Source: Vibrio ziniensis
Lineage (GTDB): Bacteria; Pseudomonadota; Gammaproteobacteria; Enterobacterales; Vibrionaceae
NCBI RefSeq assembly: GCF_011064285.1
Contig: NZ_CP049331.1
Coordinates: forward strand, 744,001 to 808,000
Direction: 5' to 3'
Length of the DNA stretch: 64,000 bases
The notes beneath the pieces were generated by a model, which ran no database searches, was not told the DNA's origin, and saw only the letters and a program-made list of their open reading frames with translations. Of the stretch, positions 3,107-33,659 are shown one piece after another (position 1 is the stretch's first letter; every line of letters starts with the position of its first letter). The translations under genes were made by a program, and so were the position numbers.

Positions 3107-5182
3107 ATGAAACGAAAAGAACTTGCGAACATGACCGACAAAGTGTTGAAAAGATATTTGCTCTGGCTGCCAAGTGTACTTATGGTATGTGCCATTGGTA
3201 CGTCTTTTATAAATCAACATTTATTCTCAAAAAGCTTAATCGCTTCTGTTATCACCAGTATTGAAGATCAATACATTGCGATAAGAAAAACTGAAGTTGA
3301 AGAGCGGGTTGATACAACGCTAAAAATGTTGGATGTTATTCGTCAAAGTAATGATCTCGCTGACGGTGATGTGATCCCGAAGGCTCTTTTCGATAAAACA
3401 ATGACTTCATTCCAGCTGCTGAATGAAGGCTATGATGACTATATATTTGTTATCGATAGTAACAAGAGGTTCGTTGTTCATAGAAACTCAGATAACTTAT
3501 TTAAAAACGATATTGATGATGAGTTAGTCCATTATATTTATCAAAGCGCAATCAATGGAGTGTCTTGGGTTGAATATAGTGACAAAGCATTTAACAACCG
3601 TAAGTCTGATGCCGCTGCACAAAAGATCACGCATATTCGCTACGTCGAAGATTGGGATGTTGTCTTAGGTAGTGGTGAGCTACTAAATGACATCAAAAAA
3701 TACTCTGAATCAGAAGCTAAAATAGTCACGAATCTAGTCCTCGAACAAAAGTCCAATCAGAACCTGTTCCATATTTTTGTCTTCATCATTTTTGCTGGGA
3801 TCATTTATTACTTACGTACCATCACGGCAAAAAAACTATATCAGTACAAATCAGCAATTGAAGAAAAGCTGATTCAAATAGAAGAGAAAGATAAAGAAAT
3901 TGCTTTTCGATCTCTTTATAACGATGTGACAGGTTTACCAAATAGAAAAGCAACGTCAGATTACATCGATAACCTTTGTTTGCAGGAAAAAGGCGAAGAG
4001 TATCAACTACAGCTGATTGACATTGTGGACTTCCAGAAGGTTAATAACCAATATGGTTTTGCCGTTGGTGACCGCGTGCTACGACAAGTGAGTAGCGCAC
4101 TGGAAGATCTTAAAGATGAAATGATGTTCATTGGGCATGTATCAGCAGACCAATTTGTAGTGATTTGTCAGAAATCAACGGGTTCATGTATCGATTTCGA
4201 AAAGCAAACTGAAACGTTTGAAAAATTTGATGTGTGTGGTGAGATGATTTCACTTCATGTTCGCAACGCAGTAGTGAGTTTCAAGAATCGCAACATTTTA
4301 GGCTCGATCATCGTGCGTAACGGTGAGCTAGCGATGAAGTATGCGAAAGCAAATAACTTATTCAATGTTAGCTATTCGCCATTTATGTCTAAGAGTTCAG
4401 AACGTCACTTCAAGATCTCTAACCTGCTAGATTTTGCAATCGACAATAAAGAGTTTTATGTTCACTACCAACCGCAAGTCAGTACGTTAAACGGTAAGAT
4501 CATTGGTGTTGAAGCGCTAGTGCGCTGGGATAACGTAGAGCTAGGACGAGTTGCGCCACTCGATTTTATTCCGATCGCTGAGAAAAAAGGTGTGATTGGT
4601 AAGATCAGTGATTTAGTACTTGCTCAAGCTTGTAAAGATATTCAGTCAATTAGCCCAAATGGCGAAGATGCTTTGACGTTATCTGTAAACATCTCACCAA
4701 ACCAACTGATGAGCAAAGGCTTTGTCGATAGTACGATAGAGATTATCCAATCAACGGGGATTGATTCAAAGCGCATTGTTTTCGAAATCACGGAAGGTAC
4801 ATTCCTAAACGATATTCCTGGAACCATTGCTGTTATTGAGCAGCTTAAAGCGATTGGCATTAAGTTTTCGATTGATGATTTTGGTACAGGTTATTCGTCG
4901 CTCAGCTATTTATCTAAGTTACCGGTCGATGAAGTGAAAATTGATAAGAGCTTTATCAATGATTTAGTTGAAGATAAAGATGCGTATAACTTAGTAAAAA
5001 GCATCTTGGCTGTAGCGAGTATTAAGCAACTGACAATTGTTGCAGAAGGTGTAGAAACTAAGGAGCAATCACAGATTCTCGCTGATCTTGCTTGTCATCT
5101 ATTGCAAGGTTACTACTTCTCACGACCTGTCGATGTTGAGAACCTAACAAAAAAGATTAGAGACAACTTAAGAGCAAAGTAA
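3107..5182 (+). CDS. Cache-GGDEF-EAL membrane protein, probable c-di-GMP phosphodiesterase
   Basis: An inner-membrane signalling protein of 691 residues. TM1 is at about 18-36, followed by a periplasmic sensor of Cache type (around 45-210, with the stretch DYIFVIDSNKRFVVH) and TM2 at about 218-237. A GGDEF domain (about 270-360) starts with the usual DVTGLPNR but has VSADQF at 345-350 where GGDEF should be, so diguanylate cyclase activity is unlikely. The EAL domain (about 435-690) keeps EAL (469-471), N529, E560, DDFGTG (590-595), K611 and the late Glu in VAEGVET, so it should hydrolyse cyclic di-GMP. An ATG at 3131 is an alternative start; neither has a clear ribosome binding site. Confidence 0.92.
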   Translation: MKRKELANMTDKVLKRYLLWLPSVLMVCAIGTSFINQHLFSKSLIASVITSIEDQYIAIRKTEVEERVDTTLKMLDVIRQSNDLADGDVIPKALFDKTMTSFQLLNEGYDDYIFVIDSNKRFVVHRNSDNLFKNDIDDELVHYIYQSAINGVSWVEYSDKAFNNRKSDAAAQKITHIRYVEDWDVVLGSGELLNDIKKYSESEAKIVTNLVLEQKSNQNLFHIFVFIIFAGIIYYLRTITAKKLYQYKSAIEEKLIQIEEKDKEIAFRSLYNDVTGLPNRKATSDYIDNLCLQEKGEEYQLQLIDIVDFQKVNNQYGFAVGDRVLRQVSSALEDLKDEMMFIGHVSADQFVVICQKSTGSCIDFEKQTETFEKFDVCGEMISLHVRNAVVSFKNRNILGSIIVRNGELAMKYAKANNLFNVSYSPFMSKSSERHFKISNLLDFAIDNKEFYVHYQPQVSTLNGKIIGVEALVRWDNVELGRVAPLDFIPIAEKKGVIGKISDLVLAQACKDIQSISPNGEDALTLSVNISPNQLMSKGFVDSTIEIIQSTGIDSKRIVFEITEGTFLNDIPGTIAVIEQLKAIGIKFSIDDFGTGYSSLSYLSKLPVDEVKIDKSFINDLVEDKDAYNLVKSILAVASIKQLTIVAEGVETKEQSQILADLACHLLQGYYFSRPVDVENLTKKIRDNLRAK

Positions 5183-5212
5183 AAGTTTCCCCTAGGTTTC
5201 ACTGTGAGATTT

Positions 5213-5239
5213 GCCACTGATGACCTCAGTGGCCTTTTT
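5213..5239 (+). terminator. terminator after the GGDEF-EAL gene
   Basis: GCCACTGA-TGACC-TCAGTGGC followed by CTTTTTG. Confidence 0.85.
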
Positions 5240-5305
5240 GTATAGAGAAAACCCCCAGCTAGGCTGGGGGTTCCGTAAAGCTTACAGCTATAAATCAGTT
5301 ATATA

Positions 5306-5377
5306 ACCCCTTTCAATTTGATAAAAACGTCTTGTGGTCTGGCAACTACAAGAGTTAATTAAGAATTGAAAGGGGGT
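5306..5377 (+). promoter_or_regulatory. 5' leader stem hiding the tnpA ribosome binding site
   Basis: ACCCCTTTCAATT at 5306-5318 is complementary to AATTGAAAGGGGGT at 5364-5377. The second arm contains the Shine-Dalgarno sequence AAGGGGG, five bases before the tnpA ATG, so folding would block translation. IS200 elements are known to silence their transposase this way. Confidence 0.7.
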
Positions 5378-5381
5378 CCCA

Positions 5382-5843
5382 ATGGGGGACGAAAAGAGCT
5401 TAGCGCACACGCGCTGGAACTGTAAATACCACATAGTCTTTGCACCGAAATATAGAAGACAAGTGTTCTACGGAGAAAAACGTAGAGCAATAGGTGAAAT
5501 ATTGAGGAAACTATGTGAATGGAAAAATGTGAACATTCTTGAAGCGGAATGTTGCTCGGATCATATCCACATGCTTTTAGAAATACCGCCCAAAATGAGT
5601 GTTTCAGCGTTTATGGGGTATTTGAAAGGTAAAAGTAGCCTAATGCTTTATGAACGATTCGGGGATTTGAAGTTTAAATATCGGAATCGTGAGTTTTGGT
5701 GCCGAGGTTATTATGTAGATACGGTAGGTAAGAATACGAGCAAGATACAGAATTACATAAAGCACCAACTAGAGCAGGATAAAATGGGAGAGCAATTGTC
5801 GCTCCCGTATTCAGGTAGCCCGTTTGCGGGCCGCAGGAAATAG
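5382..5843 (+). CDS. tnpA: IS200/IS605 family transposase TnpA
   Basis: A 153-residue Y1 HUH transposase that cuts and joins single-stranded DNA at the ends of the element. The HUH motif is SDHIHMLLE (about residues 60-68) and the catalytic tyrosine lies in NTSKIQNYIKHQ near residue 125. Length matches the IS200 norm of about 152 residues, and the frame is intact, so the element may be active. The start ATG follows a Shine-Dalgarno sequence that is buried in a leader hairpin. Confidence 0.95.
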   Translation: MGDEKSLAHTRWNCKYHIVFAPKYRRQVFYGEKRRAIGEILRKLCEWKNVNILEAECCSDHIHMLLEIPPKMSVSAFMGYLKGKSSLMLYERFGDLKFKYRNREFWCRGYYVDTVGKNTSKIQNYIKHQLEQDKMGEQLSLPYSGSPFAGRRK

Positions 5844-5966
5844 TCATATGCAAATGTCAGATCACTACGCGCCTGCTAGGGCGCTGCCAGTAGGAGAGCC
5901 TTATAGGCGCATATGAAAAACCACCGGCTATGCCGGTGGATACTTTTTTTCATTGACAGGAGAAAT

Positions 5967-7298
5967 TTATTTAACGATGGAGCGTATCTCTCCATCTTTT
6001 AGGCGAGTAACGATTAAGTCACCTTGCTGAACTTCACTGGTGTTATGAATGACATCGCCTTGAGCATTTTGCGTTATTGAATAGCCTCGAGATAAAGTAG
6101 CCAGAGGGCTGACCGCATTCATTTTGTCCATCAAGCGAGTAAATGTATGACGAGAAGAAACAAGATATCGTTTCATCGCTTCATTCATTTCTCTTTCTTT
6201 GCTTGAAAGTAGATATTGCTGATTACGCAATATTTTTTCTGGAGACAAAAGCTGAAGTTGATGCCTCTGCCTATCAAGATGCTGCTGTGTTTTGTTGATA
6301 CGAGCTTGAACTGCTCGCTCTAAGCGCATGCTGTATTCATCAAGCTGCTGTTGCTGACGTTGAAGACGATTGGCTGGATGTTGTCTGTCTAAGCGATGTT
6401 GCAGCTGTTTCAATTCAAATTTTTGTTGAGCAAAATAGTGGCGCATAGCGCTGGCTATTTTATGACGATATGCTTGAAACGCTTGTTTCTTATTGGTGTT
6501 GTCTCTGCTGACCAGTTCAGCTGCCGCTGATGGAGTCGGCGCACGAACATCAGCAACGAAGTCAGCAATCGTCACGTCAATTTCATGTCCAACCGCACTG
6601 ATAATAGGGATCTGGCTTGCTGCAATGGTACGGGCAACGATTTCGCTGTTAAAGCACCATAAGTCTTCCAACGAACCGCCGCCTCGCCCTACGATCAGCA
6701 CATCACACTCTGCACGAGAGTTGGCACAGCCAATCGCTTGAGCAATCTGAATCGATGCATCTTCCCCTTGAACTAGAGTAGGATAGATGATGATAGGCAA
6801 GCTAGGGTCGCGGCGTCTAAGAACTTGAAGGATGTCGTGCAGAGCTGCGCCAGTCTTTGAGGTGATAACACCGACACATCTTGGGTGTTCAGGTAAGCTT
6901 TTCTTTAAAGTTTGAGCAAACAGACCTTCAGAAGCAAGCTTCATTTTTAGCTGGTCGAATTCTTGTTGTAAGCGGCCATCACCTTCAGGTTGCATGCTCT
7001 CAATAATGATTTGGTAATCACCACGAGGTTCATAGAGGGACAATCGTGCTTTAACCAACACTTGCTGACCGTTTTTCGGCTTAAAGTTTACAAAGCGATT
7101 ATTGCCTTTGAACATAGCGCACTTTACTTGGGCGCGAGAGTCTTTAAGCGTTAGATACCAGTGACCGGAAACGGGAGAGGAGAAGTTGGAAACTTCACCA
7201 ATTAGCCAAACGATACCCATTTCATTTTCTAGTAATAATCGTACTTCAGCATTAAGACGAGAAACGGTATAGATGTTTGGATTGGTATTGGAAGGCAC
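5967..7298 (-). CDS. xseA: exodeoxyribonuclease VII large subunit
   Basis: Exonuclease VII (XseA with several XseB) degrades single-stranded DNA from both ends and acts in mismatch and other repair. The N-terminal OB fold (about 1-105) includes GHWYLTLKD and YEPRGDYQ; the catalytic domain has GVITSKTGAALHD and the glycine-rich GRGGGSLEDLWCFN. The C-terminal half is a long Gln/Arg-rich coiled coil, then a small closing domain (TLSRGYSIT). Length 443 matches the family. The start is a GTG aligned with the E. coli N terminus. Divergent from guaB, as in E. coli; the right-end hairpin of the IS element now serves as its terminator. Confidence 0.96.
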   Translation of the reverse strand: MPSNTNPNIYTVSRLNAEVRLLLENEMGIVWLIGEVSNFSSPVSGHWYLTLKDSRAQVKCAMFKGNNRFVNFKPKNGQQVLVKARLSLYEPRGDYQIIIESMQPEGDGRLQQEFDQLKMKLASEGLFAQTLKKSLPEHPRCVGVITSKTGAALHDILQVLRRRDPSLPIIIYPTLVQGEDASIQIAQAIGCANSRAECDVLIVGRGGGSLEDLWCFNSEIVARTIAASQIPIISAVGHEIDVTIADFVADVRAPTPSAAAELVSRDNTNKKQAFQAYRHKIASAMRHYFAQQKFELKQLQHRLDRQHPANRLQRQQQQLDEYSMRLERAVQARINKTQQHLDRQRHQLQLLSPEKILRNQQYLLSSKEREMNEAMKRYLVSSRHTFTRLMDKMNAVSPLATLSRGYSITQNAQGDVIHNTSEVQQGDLIVTRLKDGEIRSIVK

Positions 7299-7388
7299 TA
7301 ATTATTCAACCAGACGTGAGTATGGAAATTAGCGGCAATATAATACATAGCAAGGGCTAGAATGCAAATTAAAAATAAAGAAATGTGT

Positions 7389-7404
7389 AGCCAAGCGATT
7401 GCGT
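7389..7404. promoter_or_regulatory. PurR-box-like operator before guaB
   Basis: AGCCAAGCGATTGCGT matches the PurR consensus ANGCAANCGNTTNCNT at 11 of 12 fixed positions. A -10 box TATAAT lies at 7411-7416, so bound PurR would cover the -35 region of the guaB promoter. Known in E. coli guaBA; here inferred from sequence. Confidence 0.65.
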
Positions 7405-7538
7405 CGGGCGTATAATCCGTCCGCAATATCTAATCCAAATGCATCTTTTCGGTTATTAATATAGAAAGTTGTTAAAACCGGAAAGTGGAGCATTTGGATT
7501 GTTTTTATATTTACCCTCTAAATTGTGAGATATTGCAA

Positions 7539-9002
7539 ATGCTTAGAATTGCCAAAGAAGCGCTGACATTCGACGATGTTCTACTCGTACCAGCACACTC
7601 CACCGTTCTCCCAAACACTGCCGATTTACATACGCAGCTAACTAAAAATATTACTCTAAATATCCCAATGATTTCTGCGTCTATGGACACAGTGACAGAG
7701 GCTCGTTTAGCTATTGCTCTTGCACAAGAAGGCGGTATTGGCTTTATTCACAAGAATATGTCAATCGATCAGCAAGCAGCAGAAGTTCGTAAAGTAAAAA
7801 AATTCGAAGCGGGCGTTGTTGCAGATCCAGTTACCGTTAACCCAGAAGCAACGATTGCTGATGTGGTTGCCCTAACTGAAAAACACGGTTTTGCGGGTTT
7901 CCCTGTGGTAACCGAAAGCAACGAACTTGTTGGTATCATTACTGGTCGTGACGTTCGTTTCGTTACTGATCTATCGAAAAAAGTAGATTCAGTAATGACT
8001 CCTAAAGAGCGTTTAGCTGCGGTAAAAGAAGGCGCAACTCGCGCTGAAGTTCAAGAGAAAATGCACGAAGCTCGTGTTGAGAAAGTACTGGTTGTGAATG
8101 ATGATTTCCAATTAACAGGTATGATCACAGCAAAAGACTTCCACAAAGCAGAACGTAAACCAAACGCATGTAAAGATGCTCGCGGTCGTCTACGTGTAGG
8201 TGCTGCGGTTGGCGCTGGTGCTGGTAACGAAGAGCGCGTAGCCGCGCTTGTTGAAGCAGGTGTCGATGTTCTACTTATCGACTCTTCACACGGTCACTCT
8301 GAAGGTGTTCTAAACCGTATCCGCGAAACTCGCGCAGCATACCCAGATTTAGACATCATTGGTGGTAACGTAGCAACTGGCGCAGGTGCTAAAGCGCTGA
8401 TTGAAGCTGGTGTAAGTGCAGTTAAGGTCGGTATCGGCCCTGGTTCTATCTGTACAACTCGTATCGTAACAGGTGTAGGTGTACCTCAAATTACCGCTAT
8501 TTCTGATGCTGCTGAAGTGGCAAACGAATACGGTATTCCCGTTATTGCTGACGGCGGTATCCGTTTCTCTGGCGACATCTGTAAAGCAATCGCGGCAGGT
8601 GCATCTTGCGTTATGGTTGGTTCAATGTTTGCTGGTACTGAAGAAGCACCGGGTGAAATCATTCTATTTAACGGTCGTTCTTACAAATCTTACCGTGGTA
8701 TGGGTTCTTTGGGCGCAATGTCTCAAGGTTCTTCAGATCGTTACTTCCAATCTGATAACGCTGCTGACAAGCTTGTTCCAGAAGGTATCGAAGGCCGTAT
8801 CGCATATAAAGGTCGTCTGAAAGAGATCGTTCATCAACAGATGGGTGGTTTACGTTCAAGTATGGGGTTGACTGGTTCAGCTACTATTGAAGATATGCGT
8901 ACTAAAGCAGAATTTGTACGTATCTCTGGCGCTGGTATGGCAGAGTCTCACGTACACGACGTTCAAATCACTAAAGAAGCTCCAAACTACCGTTTGGGTT
9001 AA
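7539..9002 (+). CDS. guaB: IMP dehydrogenase
   Basis: Oxidises IMP to XMP with NAD+, the first step from IMP to GMP. The protein is 487 residues from the ATG at 7539, giving the family N terminus [20 protein letters not shown] frame extension to a GTG at 7485 would add 18 unrelated residues. Two CBS domains occupy about residues 93-205 inside the TIM barrel. The catalytic loop GPGSICTTR with its cysteine and the flap region after it ([16 protein letters not shown]) are intact. guaA follows 177 bases downstream on the same strand. Confidence 0.97.
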
Positions 9003-9089
9003 TGGTTAATAGCGCGACTAGATTTATAGCGCGTTGGATTAACAAACGTTTGAATGTAGTTGTTAGTTTCTTAACTGAATATTTGCACG

Positions 9090-9105
9090 ACGTAAACGTT
9101 TGCTT
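9090..9105. promoter_or_regulatory. PurR-box-like site before guaA
   Basis: ACGTAAACGTTTGCTT matches the PurR consensus at 11 of 12 fixed positions. A second, weaker palindrome with core CAAACGTTTG lies about 50 bases upstream, near 9043-9052. A GAGGCGAG-TAGA-CTCGCCTC hairpin (about 9127-9146) lies in the same leader. Separate control of guaA is inferred. Confidence 0.55.
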
Positions 9106-9179
9106 TTTTACTTGATGACTTATAGAGAGGCGAGTAGACTCGCCTCCGATTCTCAATTTAGCTGATAAGATTGCTCAAT

Positions 9180-10733
9180 ATGACAAAGAACATTCATGAT
9201 CAACGAATTCTGATCCTAGATTTCGGTTCTCAATACACTCAACTTGTAGCGCGCCGCGTTCGTGAAATCGGTGTTTACTGTGAACTATGGAGCTGGGACG
9301 TAGAAGAAGCGGATATTCGCGAATTCAATCCTGACGGTATTATCCTTTCTGGCGGCCCAGAAAGCGTGACTGAACAAAACTCTCCTCGCGCACCTCAATA
9401 TGTTTTTGACTCAGGCGTACCTGTACTTGGTGTATGTTACGGCATGCAAACTATGGCTGAGCAGTTAGGCGGTCGCGTAGCAAGTTCAGAAGAGCGTGAG
9501 TTCGGCTACGCACAAGTTAAAGTATCTGGTGAATCTGCACTGTTCAAAGACCTTGCTGAAACTCAAGATGTTTGGATGAGCCACGGTGACAAAGTTGTTG
9601 AAATCCCTGCTGACTTCGTAAAAGTTGGTGCGACAGATACTTGTCCATACGCAGCAATGGCGAATGAAGAGAAGAAATACTACGGTGTTCAGTTCCACCC
9701 AGAAGTAACTCATACTAAGCAAGGACAACAAATGCTTGAGAACTTTGTTCTTGGTGTGTGTGGTTGTGAGCGTCTATGGACATCTGAATCAATTATTGAA
9801 GATGCTGTTGCTCGTATTAAAGAGAAAGTGGGTGACGACGAAGTCATTCTGGCTCTTTCTGGTGGTGTGGATTCATCTGTTGTTGCTATGCTTGTACAGC
9901 GTGCTATCGGCGACAAATTAACCTGTGTATTTGTGGATAATGGTCTTCTGCGTCTTGACGAAGGCAAGCAGGTAATGGACATGTTTGGTGATCACTTTGG
10001 TCTGAATATTATCAAAGTAGATGCTGAAGATCGCTTTATGAATGCGCTTAAAGGCGAATCAGATCCTGAGAAGAAGCGTAAGATTATCGGTCACGAGTTT
10101 ATTAATATCTTTGATGAAGAGTCGAAGAAACTGTCCAGCGCTAAGTGGCTGGCACAAGGTACTATCTACCCTGACGTGATTGAGTCTGCTGCCTCTAAAA
10201 CAGGTAAAGCGCACGTAATCAAGTCTCACCATAACGTTGGTGGCCTGCCTGATGATATGAAAATGGGCCTGGTTGAGCCATTACGTGAACTGTTTAAAGA
10301 TGAAGTGCGTAAGATCGGTCTAGAACTTGGTCTTCCATACAACATGCTTTACCGCCACCCATTCCCAGGACCTGGTCTAGGTGTTCGTGTCCTTGGCGAA
10401 ATCAAGAAAGAATACTGTGACTTACTACGCCGTGCGGATGCAATCTTCATTGAAGAACTTCATGCAGCAGATCTATACAACAAAGTTTCTCAAGCATTTA
10501 CAGTATTCCTACCAGTACGCTCTGTGGGTGTAATGGGCGATGGTCGTAAATATGATTGGGTTGTATCGCTACGTGCTGTTGAAACTATCGACTTCATGAC
10601 AGCGCATTGGGCGCACCTACCTTATGATTTCCTAGGTAAAGTGTCTAACCGTATCATCAACGAAGTAAATGGCATTTCTCGCGTGGTTTACGACATTTCT
10701 GGCAAGCCACCAGCGACAATCGAATGGGAATAA
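9180..10733 (+). CDS. guaA: GMP synthase (glutamine-hydrolysing)
   Basis: Converts XMP to GMP using ATP and glutamine. The N-terminal class I glutamine amidotransferase has the nucleophile in GVCYGMQ and the His/Glu pair in [10 protein letters not shown]. The ATP-pyrophosphatase domain has the P-loop SGGVDSS, and the C-terminal dimerisation domain ends in KPPATIEWE. The ATG at 9180 gives [21 protein letters not shown], aligned with the E. coli protein; a TTG at 9171 is less likely. Length from this start is 517 residues. Ends before a strong terminator. Confidence 0.97.
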
Positions 10734-23839: not shown

Positions 23840-24252
23840 AAGTTTTAACATGAAAATGCCCAAAGGTTTTCAAACAAGGAATGGTAGAATGCTTCTCTTG
23901 TTCTTAATTTACCTACTTATGATAATGAGAATCTGGATATGATTGCGTTACTGATTTCTCGGAAAACCATCCTTAATGGTTGTCTGAGATGCCTTTGTAT
24001 GGTTGCGGGCCTAACCCCCCTCTACCTGTTTCACCCAACCGGCTGGCGTGAAGTCACCGATGCGCTGATGGCTACTTAATCCCCCGATGCTACTCGGCCA
24101 CTGCGCAAATTGAGTCTGCCCGACAACATCCGCCACGAATGTACAGTGTTAAAGGCGGCATCTTGGATTATTAGCGTCTGGATTGCAGTTGACGTCTTAT
24201 CATTAGTTGATAACATACGGTGTGTTTATTTACCTAGTATTAAAGGTGTTTT
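23840..24252. other. non-coding gap with a GC-richer remnant
   Basis: No intact gene is found in these 413 bases. About 23990-24175 is clearly richer in G and C than the AT-rich sequence on either side, and broken by stop codons in all frames; one frame reads FHPTGWREVTDALMAT before a stop. It looks like a decayed piece of an incoming element or transposase gene, but I cannot name it. Confidence 0.35.
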
Positions 24253-25557
24253 GTGTCAGAGGTGGGTATAGGCGTGTCTAGCTGTATTATTGGCATTAAA
24301 GGTCAAAGTCCAAGTTCCATAAACCAAGTAGATGTTTGGTTTGACTCCCTTAAATCAATTGCATCGGTTCTATCTGAAGAAAATCAGAATTTGCTAAAGA
24401 CTATTGCAGATAAAAAACCTGAAAATATTACAGAGTTATCTGAATTAACTGGGCGAGCAGTAAGTAATCTTTCTCGGACTATTAAAACGTTAGAGAAACA
24501 TGGTCTCATTGATATTGAGAGTTTTGGGAAAAGTATTAGACCGAAAATTAAATATAGTAAATTCAACATATTGTGTGATTTGAGTTTGAATGATGGAAAA
24601 AAAGATTTGTTAGAAAATAAATTTACTTTGGTCTCAATGTTTACAGGTGTTGGTGGACTGGATATGGGATTTGAAGGTGGTTTTACATACAAAGATCAAT
24701 CCTTTGAAAGTCAGCCATTCTCAACTCTGGCTGCTTATGAGAAAGATGAAAAGTGTGTTGAAACAATAAAGAAAAATTTAGATATACCTATTAGCCAAGT
24801 TGAGTTATCTGAAGAGCTTGTTAATGATTTCCCTAGTGCTGATGTGTTGATTGGTGGCTTTCCGTGCCAAGATTTTAGTTCTTGTGGCCCTAAAAGAGGC
24901 CTTAGCTCTGACAGGGGACAACTATACAAAGTTTTGGTTAGATATATGCAACATCACAAACCTAAAATTGTATGCGCTGAAAATGTTCCTAATTTAGCGC
25001 GGATGCAAAAAGGTGCAGTGCTAGAAACTATAGTTAATGATTTTAGAGAGCAAGGTTATAAAGTCCAAGTGTGGGATCTTTTTGCTCCAGATTATGGTGT
25101 GCCACAAAGTCGGAGAAGGCTGTTTTTTGTTTGCACCAGAAATGATCTTGAAGGCGAGCCTTTAAAGCCAGAACCTAAATTTGTTGGTATGCATCGCGGA
25201 ACTAAATGGGCAATTGAAGATTTGGAAAAAGTCATCGATGAGACTATTCCCAACCAAAGCCAGTATTTCAAGGCATCAAAAGCTAAGAAAGGGAATGGGC
25301 AAGGTGATGAGCACTGCAAAGCAGACGAACCCTCTTATACAATTAGGGCAAACGCTAAGTCTCGAGTCCAATTTCATTATGAATTAGATAGAAGGCTAAC
25401 TATCAGGGAATGTGCTCGCCTACAGACATTCCCCGACTCTTTTATTTTCCCTCATTCTGCTACTTCAAATGTTATGCAAATAGGTAATGCAGTACCACCT
25501 ATGTTGTCATATGAGGTGGCAACATCAATCAGAGAATTTTTATTAAAACAGGATTGA
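24253..25557 (+). CDS. HTH-fused cytosine-C5 DNA methyltransferase
   Basis: A 434-residue Dcm-type enzyme that would methylate cytosine at C5 in a specific site. Motif I is FTGVGGLDMGF (130-140), motif IV with the catalytic PC pair GGFPCQDFS (201-209), motif VI ENV (243-245), motif VIII QSRRR (285-289), motif X GNAVPP (411-416), all intact. The target recognition region between VIII and IX is short. Unusually, residues about 43-100 are a winged helix-turn-helix (ITELSELTGRAVSNLSRTIKTLEKHGLI), which may repress its own promoter. The start is GTG with AAAGG six bases upstream. Only seven bases separate it from the McrB-like gene, so it belongs to that restriction unit. The gene is very AT-rich. 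Confidence 0.93.
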   Translation: MSEVGIGVSSCIIGIKGQSPSSINQVDVWFDSLKSIASVLSEENQNLLKTIADKKPENITELSELTGRAVSNLSRTIKTLEKHGLIDIESFGKSIRPKIKYSKFNILCDLSLNDGKKDLLENKFTLVSMFTGVGGLDMGFEGGFTYKDQSFESQPFSTLAAYEKDEKCVETIKKNLDIPISQVELSEELVNDFPSADVLIGGFPCQDFSSCGPKRGLSSDRGQLYKVLVRYMQHHKPKIVCAENVPNLARMQKGAVLETIVNDFREQGYKVQVWDLFAPDYGVPQSRRRLFFVCTRNDLEGEPLKPEPKFVGMHRGTKWAIEDLEKVIDETIPNQSQYFKASKAKKGNGQGDEHCKADEPSYTIRANAKSRVQFHYELDRRLTIRECARLQTFPDSFIFPHSATSNVMQIGNAVPPMLSYEVATSIREFLLKQD

Positions 25558-25564
25558 TCAATAT

Positions 25565-27400
25565 ATGAAAGGAAATAGGGACGAGGTTTTTGATTATATT
25601 TTCTCCAAAGCCGACGAAGTTGGTTATATGGGGCTTGATTCAGCTAGGTCTGGTAAGTTTCAAGATGAACTTGAAAATGATCCTGAATTAATAAGAATTG
25701 CTGGAGAGCCTCTCTCTCGCAATTACATTAAGGATACAGTTTTAAACAATTACAGTAAGAAACAGAGGTATATATCAGAAGATGATGTACTTAGTGTATT
25801 TGTCGAGTTGACTGATATCTCTGTTTTAGGTGCAAAAAAAGATCTTGAGAATGGGATTTTTAAAATTTCATATTTAGGTGATGAATTTGAGTGCACTAGC
25901 TCAAGCATTAATGAATGGCAAACGGTTTTAAAACGATTTGGAAAAAGAAGTAGTGAAAAAACTAGATTTGCTTTTTTGACTTGTGGTGGCGTAGAGAAGC
26001 AGCAAGATGAGCTTAGGGCTGCTGTAGATATTTTAAGTTCATACGGTGTAACAGCTCTTATCGTTAAGCCTAGTCAGAAACCTATATCAATAAAGTTGTA
26101 TGTAAAAAATAAATCTGAAAAGCCTTTTAGCTTAGTTAGAACGGATTTATCCAAACCATTCCTTCTTCTAGCTGGCATCTCTGGCACAGGTAAAACCCGC
26201 TTTGTGCGTGAACAAGCAAAAACCTCTAAGCAGTTTGCAGAAACCTATTGTTTAACCTCGGTGCGCCCCGATTGGCATGAACCAAGTGATTTACTTGGTT
26301 ATATCTCACGCTTAAATGATGCTGCTGAATACATAACCACTGATGTATTACAGTTTATCGCCAAAGCATGGCGGGGCATTGTTGATGGAGGCTTGACCAT
26401 TGAGGTTCAAGAGAGCGAAGACCAAGGTAAGCGTTTCGTCGTAGCAGGCGAACGCGATGAGTTAGATAAGGTACTGCCTTACTGGCTGTGCTTGGATGAA
26501 ATGAACCTTGCTCCTGTTGAGCAGTATTTTGCTGATTATTTATCGGTGCTAGAAACTCGCGAATGGCGTTGGTCGGGTGATCACTTTACCTACAGCAGTG
26601 ATGCATTATTAAAACCCGCCACCATTAAAGAAGTCGCTGATAAAGAAACGTTACGCGAAGCGCTTGGCTTTGATGGTGCGCAATACGATGAACTATGGGC
26701 AGACATTTGCCAATATGGTTTAGGCATTCCGTTTAACCTGCTGGTTGCTGGTACGGTGAATATGGATGAAACCACGCACGGCTTTTCACGCAAGGTGATT
26801 GACCGAGCGCTGAGCTTTGATTTTGGTGCGTTTTTCCCTAACGACTATAACGATTTTTTCACTCCAACTAATTGCAACAAGCGCCTTAGCTATCCCACTT
26901 GGTCAAACGCCAGCAAAGCGGATTTAGCTGATACTTTTGATGTTGATGGCACAAAAACGGTTGCGTTTTTATCGGCCGTTAATGCGGTGCTAAAAAATAC
27001 ACCGTTTGAGTTGGCGTTCCGTGCGCTCAATGAACTTCTTCTAGCGGTTGCTAGTAGCCAACCACAAGATGACCTGACCTTAAAAGCCGTATGGGACGAC
27101 TTTATGATGTGTAAGGTTCTGCCGCGTATCGAAGGCGATACCGACAAGCTGACAACATCAAATCGCAAGGATTTGCTGGAAGAACTTAGCGCTGTGCTGG
27201 CAGACCAGTTAGCCCCTATTTGGTTCGTGTCTGAGACAGACGAAGCCAATCAACGCCCTGACTTGTATCGCGAGAAAATCGTGGCCGATGGTGCTACTGA
27301 TGAGGAAAAAGTACTTCGCATACCTTGCCGTTCAAAAGCTAAGTTGCAGTGGATGAGCGAGCGATTAGCCAGTGCCACCTTTACCAGTTTCTGGCCTTAA
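25565..27400 (+). CDS. McrB-like AAA+ restriction ATPase/GTPase
   Basis: A 611-residue protein. The AAA+ domain starts near residue 198: Walker A GISGTGKT (204-211), Walker B LCLDEMN (308-314), and the sensor/arginine-finger stretch GTVNMDETTHGFSRKVIDRA (397-416). This arrangement matches the McrB/LlaJI-R1 type of motor that moves along DNA and drives a nuclease partner. Residues 1-190 match nothing I know and probably recognise DNA. Hand counts of single lines show about 32-35% G+C before about 26150 and 45-50% after, so the N-terminal part and the motor may have different origins. The nuclease gene follows 85 bases later. Confidence 0.88.
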   Translation: MKGNRDEVFDYIFSKADEVGYMGLDSARSGKFQDELENDPELIRIAGEPLSRNYIKDTVLNNYSKKQRYISEDDVLSVFVELTDISVLGAKKDLENGIFKISYLGDEFECTSSSINEWQTVLKRFGKRSSEKTRFAFLTCGGVEKQQDELRAAVDILSSYGVTALIVKPSQKPISIKLYVKNKSEKPFSLVRTDLSKPFLLLAGISGTGKTRFVREQAKTSKQFAETYCLTSVRPDWHEPSDLLGYISRLNDAAEYITTDVLQFIAKAWRGIVDGGLTIEVQESEDQGKRFVVAGERDELDKVLPYWLCLDEMNLAPVEQYFADYLSVLETREWRWSGDHFTYSSDALLKPATIKEVADKETLREALGFDGAQYDELWADICQYGLGIPFNLLVAGTVNMDETTHGFSRKVIDRALSFDFGAFFPNDYNDFFTPTNCNKRLSYPTWSNASKADLADTFDVDGTKTVAFLSAVNAVLKNTPFELAFRALNELLLAVASSQPQDDLTLKAVWDDFMMCKVLPRIEGDTDKLTTSNRKDLLEELSAVLADQLAPIWFVSETDEANQRPDLYREKIVADGATDEEKVLRIPCRSKAKLQWMSERLASATFTSFWP

Positions 27401-27485
27401 TGAGTCGGTGCTGTTTGATGCCTTCTGCAATGAATGCAACCTATAAGCAGAACCCGTACAGTGATGGTGTAAGGAGTGGTAGGGA

Positions 27486-30077
27486 ATGCCGGAGTTAATA
27501 CGATTACAAACCCCTGACTTTGAGTTTTCGGTCTGGGCGAATGATATTAGCCAGCGGTTGAGCGTGTACAAGAAAACCATGGCGCACAGGGCGAGCGCTA
27601 ATCATGCACAACCAAGCTACGAATTGCGCTTTGCGCCAGCGGCGCAGCTGAGCAATGCTATTGAACCGCAAGGGCTAGTTGCAAATGGTTTAGTACAAAG
27701 TGGGTTAGATGAAAGGGACTTAGCCGAAAATGACCTTGTTGCTAATGGCTTAGCGAAACATGCTGAGCTGACATTAAATTCCCCGCTGTTTTTTGAGAAT
27801 ACTCAGTACCAGTTTGAGTGGGTCTTTTTTAGTGAAGTCACTAATGCGCGGTTAACCCATCGCAGCCAAAGAATGAATGAGGCGTTCCGTTTTGCCCCTG
27901 AAGTAAAAACCGCAAGGGGCGTAGTGCCTGCACGTTTAACCGGTACCATCAATACCGGCAATGATGTGGGGTGGTTACGTTTGCCTCTCACCTTTGAGCT
28001 CAATGGTAAAATACAGACTCAGCATATAGCTTTTGAAGTGTTGCCAACCAAAATGGCTCTGCACCAAGATCTACCAGTCATGTACCTAGATATTGACAAG
28101 ATTTATCCACTTTGGCGCTTTAGCTTAGTAGAAAAAACAGAGCAGGATGCAGCGACTAGCCAGCAACGCGGGCATTTTCCACTGATGTGGTTAGCTAATT
28201 TTGCCGCATTAAGGGAGCGTTTTGAGCAAGGCTTAAAAGTGATTTGTGCCGCACCGCATAGCCGTTTGCAACCAACGGTAGCCAATATTAAAGCGGCCAA
28301 ATTAAAAGGCCGTTTGTCTCGTAAGTTAGCAGAGCAGGTCAAGCAAGACTTTGCGAATGGCCAGTACGATAAACGCTACTCAGTCGAAAAAAAGCAACTG
28401 AGTGTGGATACCCCAGAAAACCGCTTTATCAAAATGGCTGTGAGTAAAAGCAAGCGGCAATTAGCGGAGTTTGAACAAAAGCTGAGGAAAAGTAACCAAG
28501 CACCAGAACGGCAACGTTTGTCGGATTCATTTTTAAATGAGCTACATAGTTGGCAACAACCGCTGCAAAAAGTGTTAGGTCAAAGTTTTTTAAAAGAGGT
28601 TGGTGCATACACAGGATTAAATCGTGAGTCGTTAGTGCTACAGCAAAAAACGGGTTACAGCGCGGTGTATCGTATTTGGCAGGAGCTGGAATTTTATTTA
28701 GATGCATTTGGCAATCAGTCGAGCATTTCGATGAAGTCAGTGGCCGAGATTTACGAAGTGTGGTGCTTTTTGTGTTTGAAGCAGATTTTAGAGCAGGATC
28801 TTGGCTTTGAATTGGTGGAAAACGGTGCGGCTAAGCTCGCCCAAAATGACTTTTTTGAGTACCAACTAAAAGATGCTTTTGCTGGAGCATTCCGTTTTAA
28901 ACGCAGCGATGGTGTGACCGCTAGGCTGGCACACGAGCCTAAGTTTACCAAAAAGGGCCAATCAATACGCTCGTACTTAGTTAACCAAGAGCCGGATATT
29001 GTGTTGGAAGTGACATTGCCTAAAAGCGCCCATTTAACAAAAGCAGACTCATCAGAAGAAAAGCAGTTTATTTGGTTGTTTGATGCCAAGTATCGTATTA
29101 AAACCGAAAAAAACCGCTTTGATGACAGCAATGAAGATATTGAAAGTACGGATTACGTACCAGACGATGCCATTAACCAAATGCACCGTTATCGGGATGC
29201 CTTGATTCGCCTATCAGAGCCGCGCTTGTCTGAGTCTCCATCCAGTAAAATCGAAGGGCAACCTGCTAAAAAAAGCCGTCCCGTTTTTGGTGCGTTTGCT
29301 TTATACCCAGGCTTTTTTGATCAAACCATCAAATCCAACCCCTATGCAGCTGCGATAGAAGAAGTGGGTATTGGTGCATTTGCACTCTTACCTAGCCAAG
29401 ATGAGCCTAGTCAAATTGATCCTACCCAGACTAAGAGCAGTTATTCGGGCCATCAGTGGTTGCTAGAATTCTTGCAAGCGCAAATTGGCACAGCACCGAA
29501 TGCACAATTAGTGCAAGGCAATGAGGCCATGTATCCTGTGGCAGGCATGGCGGAAAGGCTCTACGTACAAGAAGCCGCTAGAATTCCGTACGCTGGCATG
29601 AAGCAAGTGCTGTACCCCGATTTGACGATGACATTGGCATTAGGTGGGCAACGTTGTCGTGATAATGGCTACTTTGAAAAATTTGAGCAGGGTACAGCGC
29701 AGTGGTATCACCTGCCGCAAAGCACGTTTTTGAAGAAATTTAAGCAACATATTGCCGAGGAAATTCGCTATTTAGCGTTGGCGTCTACTTCAGACACTCA
29801 AAGTTCAACCAAGCAAATTGACAAACTTTGGCCGGTTAAACGAGTCACAGTGTTACCACGCTATGCCATTACCGAAGATCAAGCTGGTAAGAAGTCAGGC
29901 TTGGCTGATTTGTATTATTTATTTGAGCTAGGCAAGCCGCTATCACTGCAAACGCCAGTGACCAAAGTGCCACATCGTCCAATGAAGAACTCAATGAAAC
30001 TCACAACCTTAACTCGCTTAGAGAGCGTCACTAAGTTTACCGAGGTTGAAAAAGTTTACGAAGAGGCAATGGTGTAA
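27486..30077 (+). CDS. DUF2357/McrC-like PD-(D/E)xK endonuclease
   Basis: An 863-residue protein, the likely nuclease partner of the McrB-like motor. The N-terminal half fits the DUF2357 region found in McrC-related proteins. The PD-(D/E)xK core is visible: E423 in AEIYEVW, PD at 503-504 (EPDIVLEV), DAK at 533-535 (LFDAKYR), and the later QMHRYRDAL (565-573). An odd imperfect repeat of the pattern LVANGL occurs at 64-69 and 84-89, inside a stretch rich in Leu/Asn/Gly. AAGGAG stands upstream of the ATG. Composition is like the AAA+ part of the preceding gene and unlike the methyltransferase. It could cleave modified DNA (type IV) or unmodified sites (LlaJI-like). Confidence 0.85.
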   Translation: MPELIRLQTPDFEFSVWANDISQRLSVYKKTMAHRASANHAQPSYELRFAPAAQLSNAIEPQGLVANGLVQSGLDERDLAENDLVANGLAKHAELTLNSPLFFENTQYQFEWVFFSEVTNARLTHRSQRMNEAFRFAPEVKTARGVVPARLTGTINTGNDVGWLRLPLTFELNGKIQTQHIAFEVLPTKMALHQDLPVMYLDIDKIYPLWRFSLVEKTEQDAATSQQRGHFPLMWLANFAALRERFEQGLKVICAAPHSRLQPTVANIKAAKLKGRLSRKLAEQVKQDFANGQYDKRYSVEKKQLSVDTPENRFIKMAVSKSKRQLAEFEQKLRKSNQAPERQRLSDSFLNELHSWQQPLQKVLGQSFLKEVGAYTGLNRESLVLQQKTGYSAVYRIWQELEFYLDAFGNQSSISMKSVAEIYEVWCFLCLKQILEQDLGFELVENGAAKLAQNDFFEYQLKDAFAGAFRFKRSDGVTARLAHEPKFTKKGQSIRSYLVNQEPDIVLEVTLPKSAHLTKADSSEEKQFIWLFDAKYRIKTEKNRFDDSNEDIESTDYVPDDAINQMHRYRDALIRLSEPRLSESPSSKIEGQPAKKSRPVFGAFALYPGFFDQTIKSNPYAAAIEEVGIGAFALLPSQDEPSQIDPTQTKSSYSGHQWLLEFLQAQIGTAPNAQLVQGNEAMYPVAGMAERLYVQEAARIPYAGMKQVLYPDLTMTLALGGQRCRDNGYFEKFEQGTAQWYHLPQSTFLKKFKQHIAEEIRYLALASTSDTQSSTKQIDKLWPVKRVTVLPRYAITEDQAGKKSGLADLYYLFELGKPLSLQTPVTKVPHRPMKNSMKLTTLTRLESVTKFTEVEKVYEEAMV

Positions 30078-30260
30078 GTAAAGGGGCGTTTCAATTATGC
30101 AGAAGGTATAGTGAGTGACTGGTTCGGCCTGAGCTCCATAGACACTTTTTATGGTAAAAAAATGTAATCAAACTATATAGAGTAAAACTATGGCAAAGGA
30201 AAGCTGTTACGATGACGTATTTCTGTCCATTTTCTTGTTACAAGTGGTCTTTAAAACAAA

Positions 30261-30313: not shown

Positions 30314-30757
30314 CTACAGTGGTGTTACTTTAACTTCATCAAATGCTTCCATATCAACATATGCCAGAAAATTCTTTTCCCATAACTGATAAAGCTGTTT
30401 AGCTGAACTGCGAGTATCCATCGCCAGCCAACCTTTGTAAGCAATAAAGAACTTTTCTGACCGAAAATCAAAATCTAAATTGCGTTCTAGTTCGGGATAG
30501 TAATTTCCCATATAAGTGAAATCGGTAATGTATTCGATAGACCATTGGTTATTGGATGACTGACGAATCGCTATTTCAACAGGGTGATAGCCGCCTTCTT
30601 CAGCACTGTAACTTCTGTCTCGAAAGTTAAATACAATATGTCGGCTGGTGGACAGTGACTCATTAGCTTCTAGTTGCTTTTCGTAATGCTGATTTAGTAG
30701 CTCAAAAAGCTTGCTGGAGATCGGTAGTAAAGCTGGAGTAAATGATAATTTAGGCAT
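30314..30757 (-). CDS. DUF2787 family protein (copy 1)
   Basis: A 147-residue protein of the DUF2787 family, common on mobile elements of Vibrio and relatives, with no known function. The core HIVFNFRDRSYSAEEGGYHPVEIAIR... with the HPVEI motif is shared with the next gene upstream. AGGAGGG stands before the ATG. It is the last gene of a radC-DUF2787-DUF2787 operon, 45 bases after the second copy. Confidence 0.8.
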   Translation of the reverse strand: MPKLSFTPALLPISSKLFELLNQHYEKQLEANESLSTSRHIVFNFRDRSYSAEEGGYHPVEIAIRQSSNNQWSIEYITDFTYMGNYYPELERNLDFDFRSEKFFIAYKGWLAMDTRSSAKQLYQLWEKNFLAYVDMEAFDEVKVTPL

Positions 30758-30801
30758 AGTGAACCCTCCTAGTTATAGGATCAAAAGTAAAAATGGGTGG
30801 T

Positions 30802-31245
30802 TTATTGTTCGTCGTGAGTGGCGAGAATGGTGACTAACACTTTATCGAATAGATTACGAAGCAGGTGCCTATCTAAGGCATGCATCCAAGAGTTTAATCG
30901 CTCGCTTGCTTCTGGAGTTGAAAGGTCAACACTACCTGTGTCTGGTTGATAGCACCATTTGTTGGTTAGATGGAAATACAGCTCAGGCTCTACTTTGCTT
31001 GCATGTTCATTGGGGTAGGAAAAGCTAGCAAAGAAGACAATGTTCCATTTATCAGAGCTGTTAACTCTCTTGAGCTGTATTTCAACAGGATGTGCTCCTT
31101 TACGAGTCTGGTAGTAGCTTTTCTGCCGACAGTTAATAATCAGACGTTCCGTGTTATTTGGTATCGGTGCATGTCCTAGTATTCGCTCTAACTGTTTGTG
31201 TAGATGCTTAGGGACTTTGATATCACCATAGTGTTGTTCAATCAT
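30802..31245 (-). CDS. DUF2787 family protein (copy 2)
   Basis: A protein of 147 residues from the ATG at 31245, which overlaps the radC stop as ATGA, showing translational coupling; an upstream in-frame ATG at 31275 would overlap radC by more. It shares with copy 1 the INCRQKSYY...HPVEIQLKR core and the overall length, so the two arose by duplication and have drifted far apart. GAGAGAGG precedes the start. Confidence 0.78.
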   Translation of the reverse strand: MIEQHYGDIKVPKHLHKQLERILGHAPIPNNTERLIINCRQKSYYQTRKGAHPVEIQLKRVNSSDKWNIVFFASFSYPNEHASKVEPELYFHLTNKWCYQPDTGSVDLSTPEASERLNSWMHALDRHLLRNLFDKVLVTILATHDEQ

Positions 31246-31712
31246 AATAAGCCTCTCTCTGCTAGTGAGACGCATTCTCTACCAACAACGATGTGGTCTA
31301 ATACTCGGATATCCACCAGCGATAACGCATCTTTCAATCGCTCAGTAATACGTCTATCTGCACTGGATGGAGTGGCTATACCTGAAGGGTGATTGTGGGC
31401 GAATATCACAGCGGAAGCATTGCACTTCAATGCTTCTTTAACTACTTCTCTTGGGTAAACACTTGCGCTGTCTACAGTGCCTTGGAACAGCTCTTTAAAT
31501 TCGAGTAACTGATGTTGGTTATCAAGGAACATAGCTGCAAACACTTCACGCTCGTATGAGCCTAGCTGACAGGTAAGGTACTTCTTCGTTTGTTCTGGAT
31601 TGCAATAAGTATCGCCACCAGCAAAGGATTCTCTGATGATGTTATTTGCAACATCAATGGCTTCTTGCTTGGAATGGATAGTAATAGGATAGGTAATCAA
31701 TGATTCTGACAT
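31242..31712 (-). CDS. RadC family JAB-domain protein
   Basis: A 156-residue RadC/YeeS-type protein with a JAB/MPN domain: the metal-binding motif is FAHNHPSG (about 103-110) with the later SSADRRIT segment, plus an upstream Glu in LLEFKELFQGT. Proteins of this short type are a hallmark of P4-like islands and prophages; the old link of RadC to repair is not supported, and function is unknown. First gene of the operon with two DUF2787 genes. Confidence 0.88.
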   Translation of the reverse strand: MSESLITYPITIHSKQEAIDVANNIIRESFAGGDTYCNPEQTKKYLTCQLGSYEREVFAAMFLDNQHQLLEFKELFQGTVDSASVYPREVVKEALKCNASAVIFAHNHPSGIATPSSADRRITERLKDALSLVDIRVLDHIVVGRECVSLAERGLL

Positions 31713-31887: not shown

Positions 31888-33126
31888 TTAAACTACTTTT
31901 AACTGCTTGGTTCCTGTTACTGATAGGCTACCTTTAGACGCTTCTTCGATGTGCTCACTCCACCAGCACATCATAGGTCTACGGCGTTCGATGTAATCTG
32001 TTCGGTTGTAAGCACTACGAACTTGGTTGTCATCTACATGTGCTAGTGCAGATTCAATTAAATCAGGCTCAAAACCTTGCTCATTGAGAGTCGTACTAGC
32101 AAGGGAGCGTAGACCATGGCTAACTAATCGCCCAGCAAAGCCCATTCGTTTTAAAGCCATGTTGGCAGTTTGACTATTGCATGGTTTCTTAGGATCGCGG
32201 TCAGAAGGAAAAACAAACTCTCTATGCCCACTAATAGGCTTCATCACATCTAAAATAGCCAACATTTGTTCAGTAAGAGGAATGCGGTGATCCCGTCTCT
32301 TCTTCATTCGCACCGCAGGAATTGTCCAAATTTTTTCCTCGACGTCAATTTCTTCCCATCTAGCACCTGATGCCTCTGAAGGACGAGTCATCGTATTGAG
32401 TTGCCATTCGATTAAGCAACGAGTTGTTCGTTTAATACTTGCATGAGCAATCGCATTCATTAGCTCTGGTAATTCGGCTGGAGCTAATGCTGCCATGTTT
32501 TCTTTTTTGGGTTTCTTAAAGGCTGCTTTTATTCCACTTAATGGGTTTGCTTGAACTAGACCGCAGTTTGTCGCGTAATTCATTACTTCATTTAGCCGCT
32601 GACTTAGGCGCTTAACTGTTTCTAAACTCCCTTTTGCTTCTATAGGGCGTAATAGTTCTATTATTAATGGAGCGCTTATATCCTTGATTGGCGTTTTTGC
32701 CAATTTTGGAAATACATGTAGTTCTAATGAACGCCAGATATCAATAGCATAGTCAGGAGTAATTGAGTCTTTTTTAATTTCAAACCACTCTTTAGATACA
32801 TTTTCAAATGTATTTTCATGAGTCTCTTTATACTCTTGCTGTTTCTTCTGCTTTTGTTCTTGAGGATCGATCCCTTGAGCGATCAGCTCTTTTGCTAGTA
32901 ATGAGCTTTTTCTTGCATGTGCAAGGTTAACATCGGGATAGCGACCTAAATTGTAATTAGCTCGTTTTCCATTTGTAGGGCGGTAGTAGTTAAGTTGCCA
33001 TTGTTTGGAGCCACTAGGAAGTATGCGGAGTTGTAATCCTTGTCCATCAGAAAGGCAGTATTCCTTTTCTTTTGGTTTTGCATTCTTAACTTCTGTTGCT
33101 GTTAAAGGTTTGGTGATTCTAGGCAT
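31888..33126 (-). CDS. int: P4-type tyrosine integrase
   Basis: A tyrosine recombinase of about 412 residues (an upstream in-frame ATG at 33138 adds four). The N-terminal DUF4102 arm-binding domain is at about 1-90, the SAM-like core-binding domain at 100-190, and the catalytic domain follows with TRPSEASGARW (first Arg), HGLRSLASTTL (His-x-x-Arg) and the nucleophile tyrosine in AYNRTDY. It lies 166 bases from the 3' end of ssrA, the usual place for an integrase that targets that gene, and reads into the island. Confidence 0.95.
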   Translation of the reverse strand: MPRITKPLTATEVKNAKPKEKEYCLSDGQGLQLRILPSGSKQWQLNYYRPTNGKRANYNLGRYPDVNLAHARKSSLLAKELIAQGIDPQEQKQKKQQEYKETHENTFENVSKEWFEIKKDSITPDYAIDIWRSLELHVFPKLAKTPIKDISAPLIIELLRPIEAKGSLETVKRLSQRLNEVMNYATNCGLVQANPLSGIKAAFKKPKKENMAALAPAELPELMNAIAHASIKRTTRCLIEWQLNTMTRPSEASGARWEEIDVEEKIWTIPAVRMKKRRDHRIPLTEQMLAILDVMKPISGHREFVFPSDRDPKKPCNSQTANMALKRMGFAGRLVSHGLRSLASTTLNEQGFEPDLIESALAHVDDNQVRSAYNRTDYIERRRPMMCWWSEHIEEASKGSLSVTGTKQLKVV

Positions 33127-33255
33127 TGTAGTAACCATAATTTAGTATCTATAGTCTATGGTTACTACAGTGGTTACTAAAAGTCAAAGATGTCAAAAGA
33201 TGTTATTGGACGTTGATGAACGCTAAGTTATTGATTTTACGTTGTTGCAGGCAAG

Positions 33256-33291: not shown

Positions 33292-33659
33292 TGGTGGAGC
33301 TGGGGGGATTTGAACCCCCGTCCGAAAATCATTCACCATTGGTACTACATGCTTAGTCGATCTTTAATTTCGCCACCCATCTGCGAACCGACACGCTAAT
33401 GAATGACTATCCTGAATTATAATTCGCCGTTCATCTCTCAGGCGGGAGAATCCGAGCTAGCGCGTTTGGGTTTGATCCCTCGTTATTCCCCGTCTTACGT
33501 GCGGAAGCTAGGGCGAGAGAGCTCCGAGCAGGGTATTAAGCTGCTAGTGCGTAGTTTTCGTCGTTTGCGACTATTTTTTTGCGGTTTGTTAACGAGGCCT
33601 ACCGCACCTCGGCATGCACCTCAGACTTCAAAATTCCCGTCGAATCCAGAATCAGCCCC
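33292..33659 (-). ncRNA. ssrA: transfer-messenger RNA (tmRNA)
   Basis: tmRNA rescues stalled ribosomes together with SmpB. The 5' end reads GGGGCTGATTCTGGATTCGACGGG and the 3' end GGGGGTTCAAATCCCCCCAGCTCCACCA in pieces, forming the tRNA-like domain with an encoded CCA. The tag frame (33568 down to 33539) encodes ANDENYALAA followed by TAA, the tag known from Vibrio. Length is 368 bases. The island integrase uses its 3' end as attachment site; the gene is left whole. smpB lies upstream on the same strand. Confidence 0.97.

Follow-up and report, generated by a model that had tools for sequence, protein, structure and literature searches.

A probable McrBC-derived restriction-modification unit of Vibrio ziniensis with an exchangeable methyltransferase-reader front on a constant motor-nuclease

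What sets a restriction motor and its nuclease to cut unmarked or marked DNA is the question raised by a three-gene unit of Vibrio ziniensis, located in the 64,000-nucleotide stretch analyzed here (contig NZ_CP049331.1, positions 744,001 to 808,000; hereafter the window). The unit is one operon encoding a C5 cytosine methyltransferase with a helix-turn-helix (HTH) domain, an McrB-like AAA+ motor and a DUF2357/PD-(D/E)xK (McrC-like) nuclease. A first-pass annotation had described an intact C5 methyltransferase, followed after 7 bases by an McrB-like AAA+ protein (GISGTGKT, LDEMN) and then by a DUF2357/PD-(D/E)xK protein, and had placed the unit in a mobile island. Domain matches and motifs confirmed the layout, and an integrase and ssrA beside the unit agree with the island location. 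The annotation missed the main point, that the methyltransferase and the motor N-terminus together make up a cassette, separate from the motor-nuclease, that is open to exchange. The unit is probably an McrBC-derived, methyltransferase-linked restriction-modification unit of the LlaJI and PcaRCI kind, with an exchangeable front on a constant motor and nuclease.

Relatives were drawn from genome scans only. A scan with the nuclease as query gave 48 loci (denoted by L numbers), and the nuclease was matched in 22 of 394 genomes of the order. Loci L003-L008, L011, L020 and L029, from nine named genera, carry a motor core and nuclease about 84-93% identical to those of the window; with the exception of L004, they contain no detectable counterpart of motor residues 1-195, the putative reader, and any methyltransferase present is at best distant C5 kin (about 24-32%). 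L004, from Marinobacterium lacunae, resembles the window throughout (methyltransferase 98, reader 91, core 91 and nuclease 93% identity). The divergent L034 shares both the methyltransferase and the reader families of the window on a core 62-64% identical (window against L034: methyltransferase 81, reader 65, core 64 and nuclease 61%). L004 and L002 are 98% identical in core and 98% in nuclease, but 29% in methyltransferase and 29% in reader, values at which unrelated readers (17-31% by the same measure) and distant C5 methyltransferase kin are found. Over 171 pairs from 19 loci, Spearman coefficients were 0.49 for methyltransferase and reader and 0.92 for core and nuclease, with 0.13 for reader and core, 0.17 for reader and nuclease, 0.21 for methyltransferase and core, and 0.26 for methyltransferase and nuclease. 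Mantel tests on 25 loci gave 0.33 for methyltransferase and reader (p 0.001), 0.05 for methyltransferase and core (p 0.35), and 0.08 for reader and core (p 0.18). Judged from sequence comparison, the methyltransferase and motor residues 1-195 are an exchangeable cassette, separate from the constant motor core and nuclease, and the exchange of fronts is evident at this level.

The pairing of methyltransferase and reader bears on a different explanation, in which the unit is a type IV-like nuclease, the methyltransferase a resident orphan or antitoxin-like companion, and the reader directed at modified DNA. Motor and nuclease are indeed of a McrBC-relative kind, and the window reader model is of low confidence, with a predicted local distance difference test (pLDDT) score below 50 over most of residues 63-190. 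Methyltransferase and reader families nevertheless co-vary, and in the window the two genes are 7 bases apart; even in L113, where the methyltransferase lies downstream, it belongs to the family that accompanies its reader elsewhere (57% to L030/L027). We therefore consider a type IV-like nuclease with an unconnected methyltransferase improbable. The window methyltransferase (PF00145, E 6e-65) is the only C5 methyltransferase in its genome and is not commonly found alone: a search of the 394 genomes of the order at E 1e-60 or better gave just two further matches (42% and 40% identity).

Homology to relatives with other fronts begins at a sharp junction eight residues before Walker A, where the GC content changes from about 0.33 to about 0.46. 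Base-by-base comparison placed the junction at identical codons in four of five pairs (window/L003, window/L029, window/L006 and L004/L002); in the fifth, the Psychrobacter pair L023/L026, homology starts about 30 bases earlier, and the DNA is 90-93% identical on each side of the differing fronts. In L085/L086, the first part of the core is 71% alike and the part beyond roughly the first 600 bases 93%; L032 matches L088 and L089 at 87-89% over the reader and about 700 bases of core, after which similarity drops. Crossovers thus seem to lie deeper within the conserved core, so that ordinary homologous recombination suffices and a site-specific mechanism is not implied. Locus L107 combines a reader sharing 97% identity with the L029 reader and a core at most 73% identical to any seen earlier. 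These junctions argue against an ordinary PcaRCI/LlaJI-type system in which the fronts differ through old divergence and rapid drift, with no cassette exchange. That explanation can draw on PcaRCI, for which the same three-gene layout and function are known, and on the long-known N-terminal diversity of McrB homologues. It is contradicted by unlike fronts joined to cores and nucleases of 98% identity (L004/L002) or set between flanks of 90-93% DNA identity (L023/L026), and by similar fronts on dissimilar cores, as for the window and L034 or L029 and L107; drift alone is very improbable.

To compare the front types, states were counted in 48 loci, comprising the window and 47 relatives. Excluded beforehand were L001 and L050-L066 (repeats of other loci, or superseded by L079-L090, which are longer), L009 and L010 (reader cut by a contig end), L031, L035 and L084 (little or no upstream sequence, or a cut methyltransferase), L049 (too distant), L067-L074 (fragments), and L012, L014, L019, L040, L041, L046 and L048 (motor core not found). 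L011 and L018 (nuclease) and L032 (motor) were retained despite an interrupted frame, as was L090, whose motor frame is shorter. A C5 methyltransferase lies next to the motor gene in 25 loci, none of which carries the reader domain MrcB_N, while 20 of the 23 methyltransferase-free loci do carry it (Fisher p 1e-10; with the set thinned to 39 loci, 3e-9). In 25 methyltransferase-free loci (22 with MrcB_N and three with a short reader; 5.5-22.7 kb each), no match was found to the 19 C5 methyltransferases of the set; these 25 include L031 and L035, whose upstream sequence is close to nil or limited to 655 bases and which stand outside the count of 48, and methyltransferase types other than C5 were sought only among neighbors scanned with Pfam.

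MrcB_N/DUF3578 is the largest reader family, with Pfam E values of 4e-56 to 6e-34 in the five members scanned and the rest assigned by blastp. A search with its profile placed structures of the E. coli McrB N-terminal domain first (3ssc, E 0.002; hhalign 95%). Among the E. coli McrB residues that we take to form the base pocket, W49 and Y64 are each conserved in 21 of 22 MrcB_N readers, L68 in all 22, and Y41 in one. In E. coli McrB, this domain reads methylcytosine (PMC11090510, PMC7680126). The MrcB_N profile matched none of 28 other readers significantly (best E 0.12). The window reader has no match to the E. coli McrB N-terminal domain and reaches the MrcB_N profile only at E 0.68; for readers of the EVE/YTH type, Pfam alone was used.

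A tree of 51 motor cores requires 14 changes among the three states, and only one of 200 shuffles was as low for the three states jointly. Well-supported branches force at least 8 changes of the methyltransferase label (34 of 500 shuffles as low); the MrcB_N label takes 11 changes, 7 of them forced (3 of 500 shuffles as low). Opposite states occur in sister pairs, among them L023/L026, L085/L086 and L035/L037, with little upstream sequence for L035. As a hold-out, the prediction that a methyltransferase lies immediately upstream when MrcB_N is absent was recorded before seven further loci were found in 296 genomes of the window's family (nine genomes matched, two already seen), with cores at most 76% identical to those seen before. 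Four of the seven carry MrcB_N without a C5 methyltransferase; the other three carry other readers (MrcB_N profile at most 2 bits), two of them with a methyltransferase directly upstream. Presence or absence was predicted correctly in 7 of 7, and position in 6 of 7.

Several observations weigh against a strictly paired cassette and a clean alternation of fronts on an McrBC-like machine. The hold-out locus L113 has its methyltransferase downstream on the other strand rather than immediately upstream. Pairing is not strict, since L017 combines the L002/L003 methyltransferase (88-89%) with an unrelated reader, and L085 and L110 carry the L002-type methyltransferase family with a different reader. 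In 3 of the 48 loci (L006, L008 and L018), MrcB_N and a C5 methyltransferase are both absent, and a 122-residue reader is found instead. The Fisher values overstate the exclusion, as the loci are related and kinship is ignored; well-supported branches give only 7 independent pairs, in which MrcB_N runs opposite to methyltransferase in a mean of 5.2, never in the same direction, and shows no difference in 1.8 (sign test median p 0.06). The state is clustered on the tree to some degree, yet changes often. The window reader is without a recognized fold, and genome, plasmid, class-sample and PDB searches gave no homologues beyond L004 and L034. McrB is the best AAA+ match of the motor by a narrow margin only; profile comparison with E. 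coli McrB was weak for the motor, and that of the nuclease with E. coli McrC was negative.

On the model of McrBC and LlaJI, the C5 methyltransferase of the probable restriction-modification unit would mark its site in the host genome and block reader binding there, while the N-terminal domain of the AAA+ protein would recognize the unmarked site. Reader binding would lead to ring assembly and nucleotide-driven movement of the McrB-like ring and its McrC-like partner on DNA, and the PD-(D/E)xK domain would then cut. Methyltransferase and reader would be inherited mostly as one specificity cassette, apparently swapped between backbones by homologous recombination in the motor core, and a swap to an MrcB_N front without a methyltransferase would turn a cutter of unmethylated DNA into a cutter of methylated DNA. 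We infer that a single motor and nuclease can support either modification-blocked or modification-dependent restriction, as set by the attached front; DNA recognition by residues 1-195, cutting at unmethylated sites, a change of specificity upon exchange and regulation by the HTH domain are likewise predicted. On balance we favor a plug-in effector, in which recombination swaps a methyltransferase-reader pair and a methylcytosine reader for one another at one constant junction, so that mobile islands flip between restricting unmethylated and methylated DNA, and in which the nuclease C-terminal ASCH/PUA-like domain may be a second, shared modification check. That the unit is decayed and inactive, its conservation due to recent transfer alone, is the least probable explanation: broken relatives do occur (the nuclease of G082 with a stop, split nuclease or motor frames in L011, L018 and L032, remnants in L012/L014), but all three window frames are open, with invariant catalytic residues present.

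Table 1 Features of the unit and its island in the window
Feature	Position	Strand	Remarks
Whole unit	24018..30119	+	Homologous to the Marinobacterium lacunae unit (L004); single blastn alignment, 88.9% DNA identity, 6195 columns
HTH-C5 cytosine methyltransferase, 434 aa	24253..25557	+	Part of the exchangeable cassette
N-terminal winged HTH, HVO_A0114 type, methyltransferase residues 27-103	24331..24561	+	
Putative DNA-reader domain, motor residues 1-195	25565..26149	+	Same family only in L004 and L034
Cassette junction	26145..26150	+	Codons L196-S-K-P-F-L; homology to other-front relatives begins
McrB-like AAA+ motor core, residues 196-611	26150..27400	+	Walker A GISGTGKT, Walker B LDEMN, N-M-D (NxD) signature
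McrC-like nuclease subunit, 863 aa	27486..30077	+	
DUF2357 domain, nuclease residues 152-398	27939..28679	+	
PD-(D/E)xK nuclease PDDEXK_7, residues 421-610	28746..29315	+	
C-terminal domain, nuclease residues 709-863	29610..30074	+	Model resembles ASCH/PUA-like domains
Tyrosine integrase of host island	31888..33138	-	
tmRNA gene (ssrA)	33292..33659	-	Adjoins integrase

The window, L004, L034 and L037 carry the HTH domain as a fusion with the methyltransferase; in many relatives it forms a separate gene of about 110 amino acids heading the cassette. It is matched in 26 of 62 other loci, where it heads cassettes of all three states and also precedes an unrelated type IV enzyme; this stand-alone occurrence fits an operon regulator, and the HTH of the methyltransferase probably controls the operon. 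The best plasmid relatives of the methyltransferase share about 40% identity with it, and no target site is given in their annotation.

The motor signature N399-M400-D401 is invariant in 29 of 29 aligned motors, and E421, E424, D504, D533 and K535 of the nuclease are invariant across 31 sequences. Foldseek with the motor model returned McrB, dynein and other AAA+ proteins among the matches, none at E 0.001 or better, and the 50 matches listed for the nuclease model were unrelated folds; the assignment of the nuclease to the McrC type of E. coli McrBC was made by fold comparison. Motor and nuclease as single sequences gave no PDB relative at E 1, and the window reader had no significant PDB match by sequence. 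In profile searches, the PDB yielded nothing at E 1 for A5, A7 and A2, nothing at 0.01 for A1, and non-significant matches only for A4 and A6. The nuclease C-terminal domain has no Pfam match, and stand-alone homologues of it exist.

Outside the genome scans, plasmids yielded no reader relative and, for the nuclease, distant DUF2357 proteins only (12 records, 21-25% identity); viral contigs yielded no relative of nuclease or reader. In a class sample, reader (E 1e-3) and core (E 1e-40) each matched the window's own genome alone (1 of 369), and blastn with L010 core and nuclease DNA found no match in 20,395 E. coli records (5,426 genomes). The window unit matches the PADLOC candidate pair PDC-M26 (A at E 5e-33, B at E 4e-8).

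The unit is flanked by AlpA, RadC-like and DUF2787 genes, the last as a tandem pair at 30314-31275 beside the short RadC-like gene of the island. A second copy of the ssrA end was not found within the window. Relatives vary in further ways. The cores carrying the 122-residue reader in L006, L008 and L018 are 72-91% identical to that of the window, with no C5 methyltransferase match in the locus. In L011 (7972-8634), the reader has 222 instead of 360 amino acids, apparently through loss of an internal segment, and its neighboring methyltransferase is 98% identical. In L012, L014, L019, L041 and L048, the slot is filled by a 1046-amino-acid frame (about 6826-9995), the motor core was not found, and the DUF2357 gene is reduced to C-terminal parts (residues 198-863 or less), some of them broken; in L012 this frame is a PLD-helicase-DUF3427 protein (PADLOC mREase_IV, E 2e-223), to which that of L041 is an 86% DNA match. 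In L036, an MrcB_N motor gene is preceded at a distance of 62 bases by a gene (5103-8072) for a type IV-like PLD-helicase protein that carries a peptidase S24-like domain at its C-terminus (PF00717, E 3e-6). Two small genes of about 80 and 157 amino acids lie between motor and nuclease in L042, L043 and L047, and encode DUF3791 and DUF3990 proteins in L042, the sole one scanned.

Among known systems, the nearest studied one found is PcaRCI of Pectobacterium carotovorum RC5297, which has the same layout of one C5 methyltransferase with McrB-like and DUF2357 proteins and restricts unmethylated plasmid and phage (PMC8989522). Its methyltransferase is Dcm-like (CCNGG), the accessible part of the account does not mention an HTH fusion, and the likeness to the window is drawn from its description. 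LlaJI of Lactococcus also pairs a McrB-like specificity subunit of unique N-terminus with a PD-(D/E)xK subunit and restricts unmethylated DNA in vivo; it differs in having two methyltransferases and an asymmetric GACGC site (PMC1459862). The N-terminal domain of H. pylori LlaJI.R1 is described as a B3 fold. Two tandem C5 methyltransferases also precede the same kind of motor in L013 (5948-8220) and L087 (upstream of the motor gene), a LlaJI-like number, so that methyltransferase number varies with the cassette within one motor family. The LlaJI/BsuMI-type reading of the first-pass annotation stands insofar as a modification-blocked system is the best reading; novelty as a compact, one-methyltransferase variant was rejected, given the layout of PcaRCI and the two methyltransferases of L013 and L087.

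The unit departs from classical type IV McrBC in its C5 methyltransferase, cognate by inference, and in the absence of an MrcB_N reader. E. coli K-12 McrBC shares, by fold comparison, the AAA+ motor and the McrC-type nuclease, and differs in lacking a methyltransferase, in its DUF3578/MrcB_N reader and in an NxxD rather than NxD signature. The NxD branch of McrBC has the same signature and includes a group associated with methyltransferases; the N-terminal part of the nuclease subunit may also form an Ig-like sandwich. The accessible part of the account of that branch, which defers those systems to a later publication, does not describe fronts being exchanged on a single backbone (PMC11090510). 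A 2008 study noted N-terminal differences among mcrB paralogues, as well as type II relatives that have methyltransferases (PMC2614495), and the idea of component exchange is already known from a review stating that modularity lets modification-protected systems swap components with modification-dependent ones (PMC12707154). In the literature searched, with subscription journals mostly outside it, we recognized no account of repeated exchange between a methyltransferase-reader pair and a methylcytosine reader on one near-identical motor-nuclease. As far as we found, earlier discussion of the shift between cutting unmarked and marked DNA is limited to comparisons of distant systems (E. coli McrBC against LlaJI) and to general remarks on modularity; sister bacteria whose near-identical machines carry opposite fronts make the question directly testable with natural pairs. 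Such a shift would suggest how island populations answer phages that escape through acquired methylation. Target-domain exchange in HsdS of type I systems similarly swaps specificity on a conserved enzyme (PMC12707154). If unrelated readers can be joined to one motor-nuclease at a single junction, it would offer a useful scaffold for programming. Exchange of HsdS target domains leaves the sense of methylation unchanged, whereas the exchange of fronts described here would invert it.

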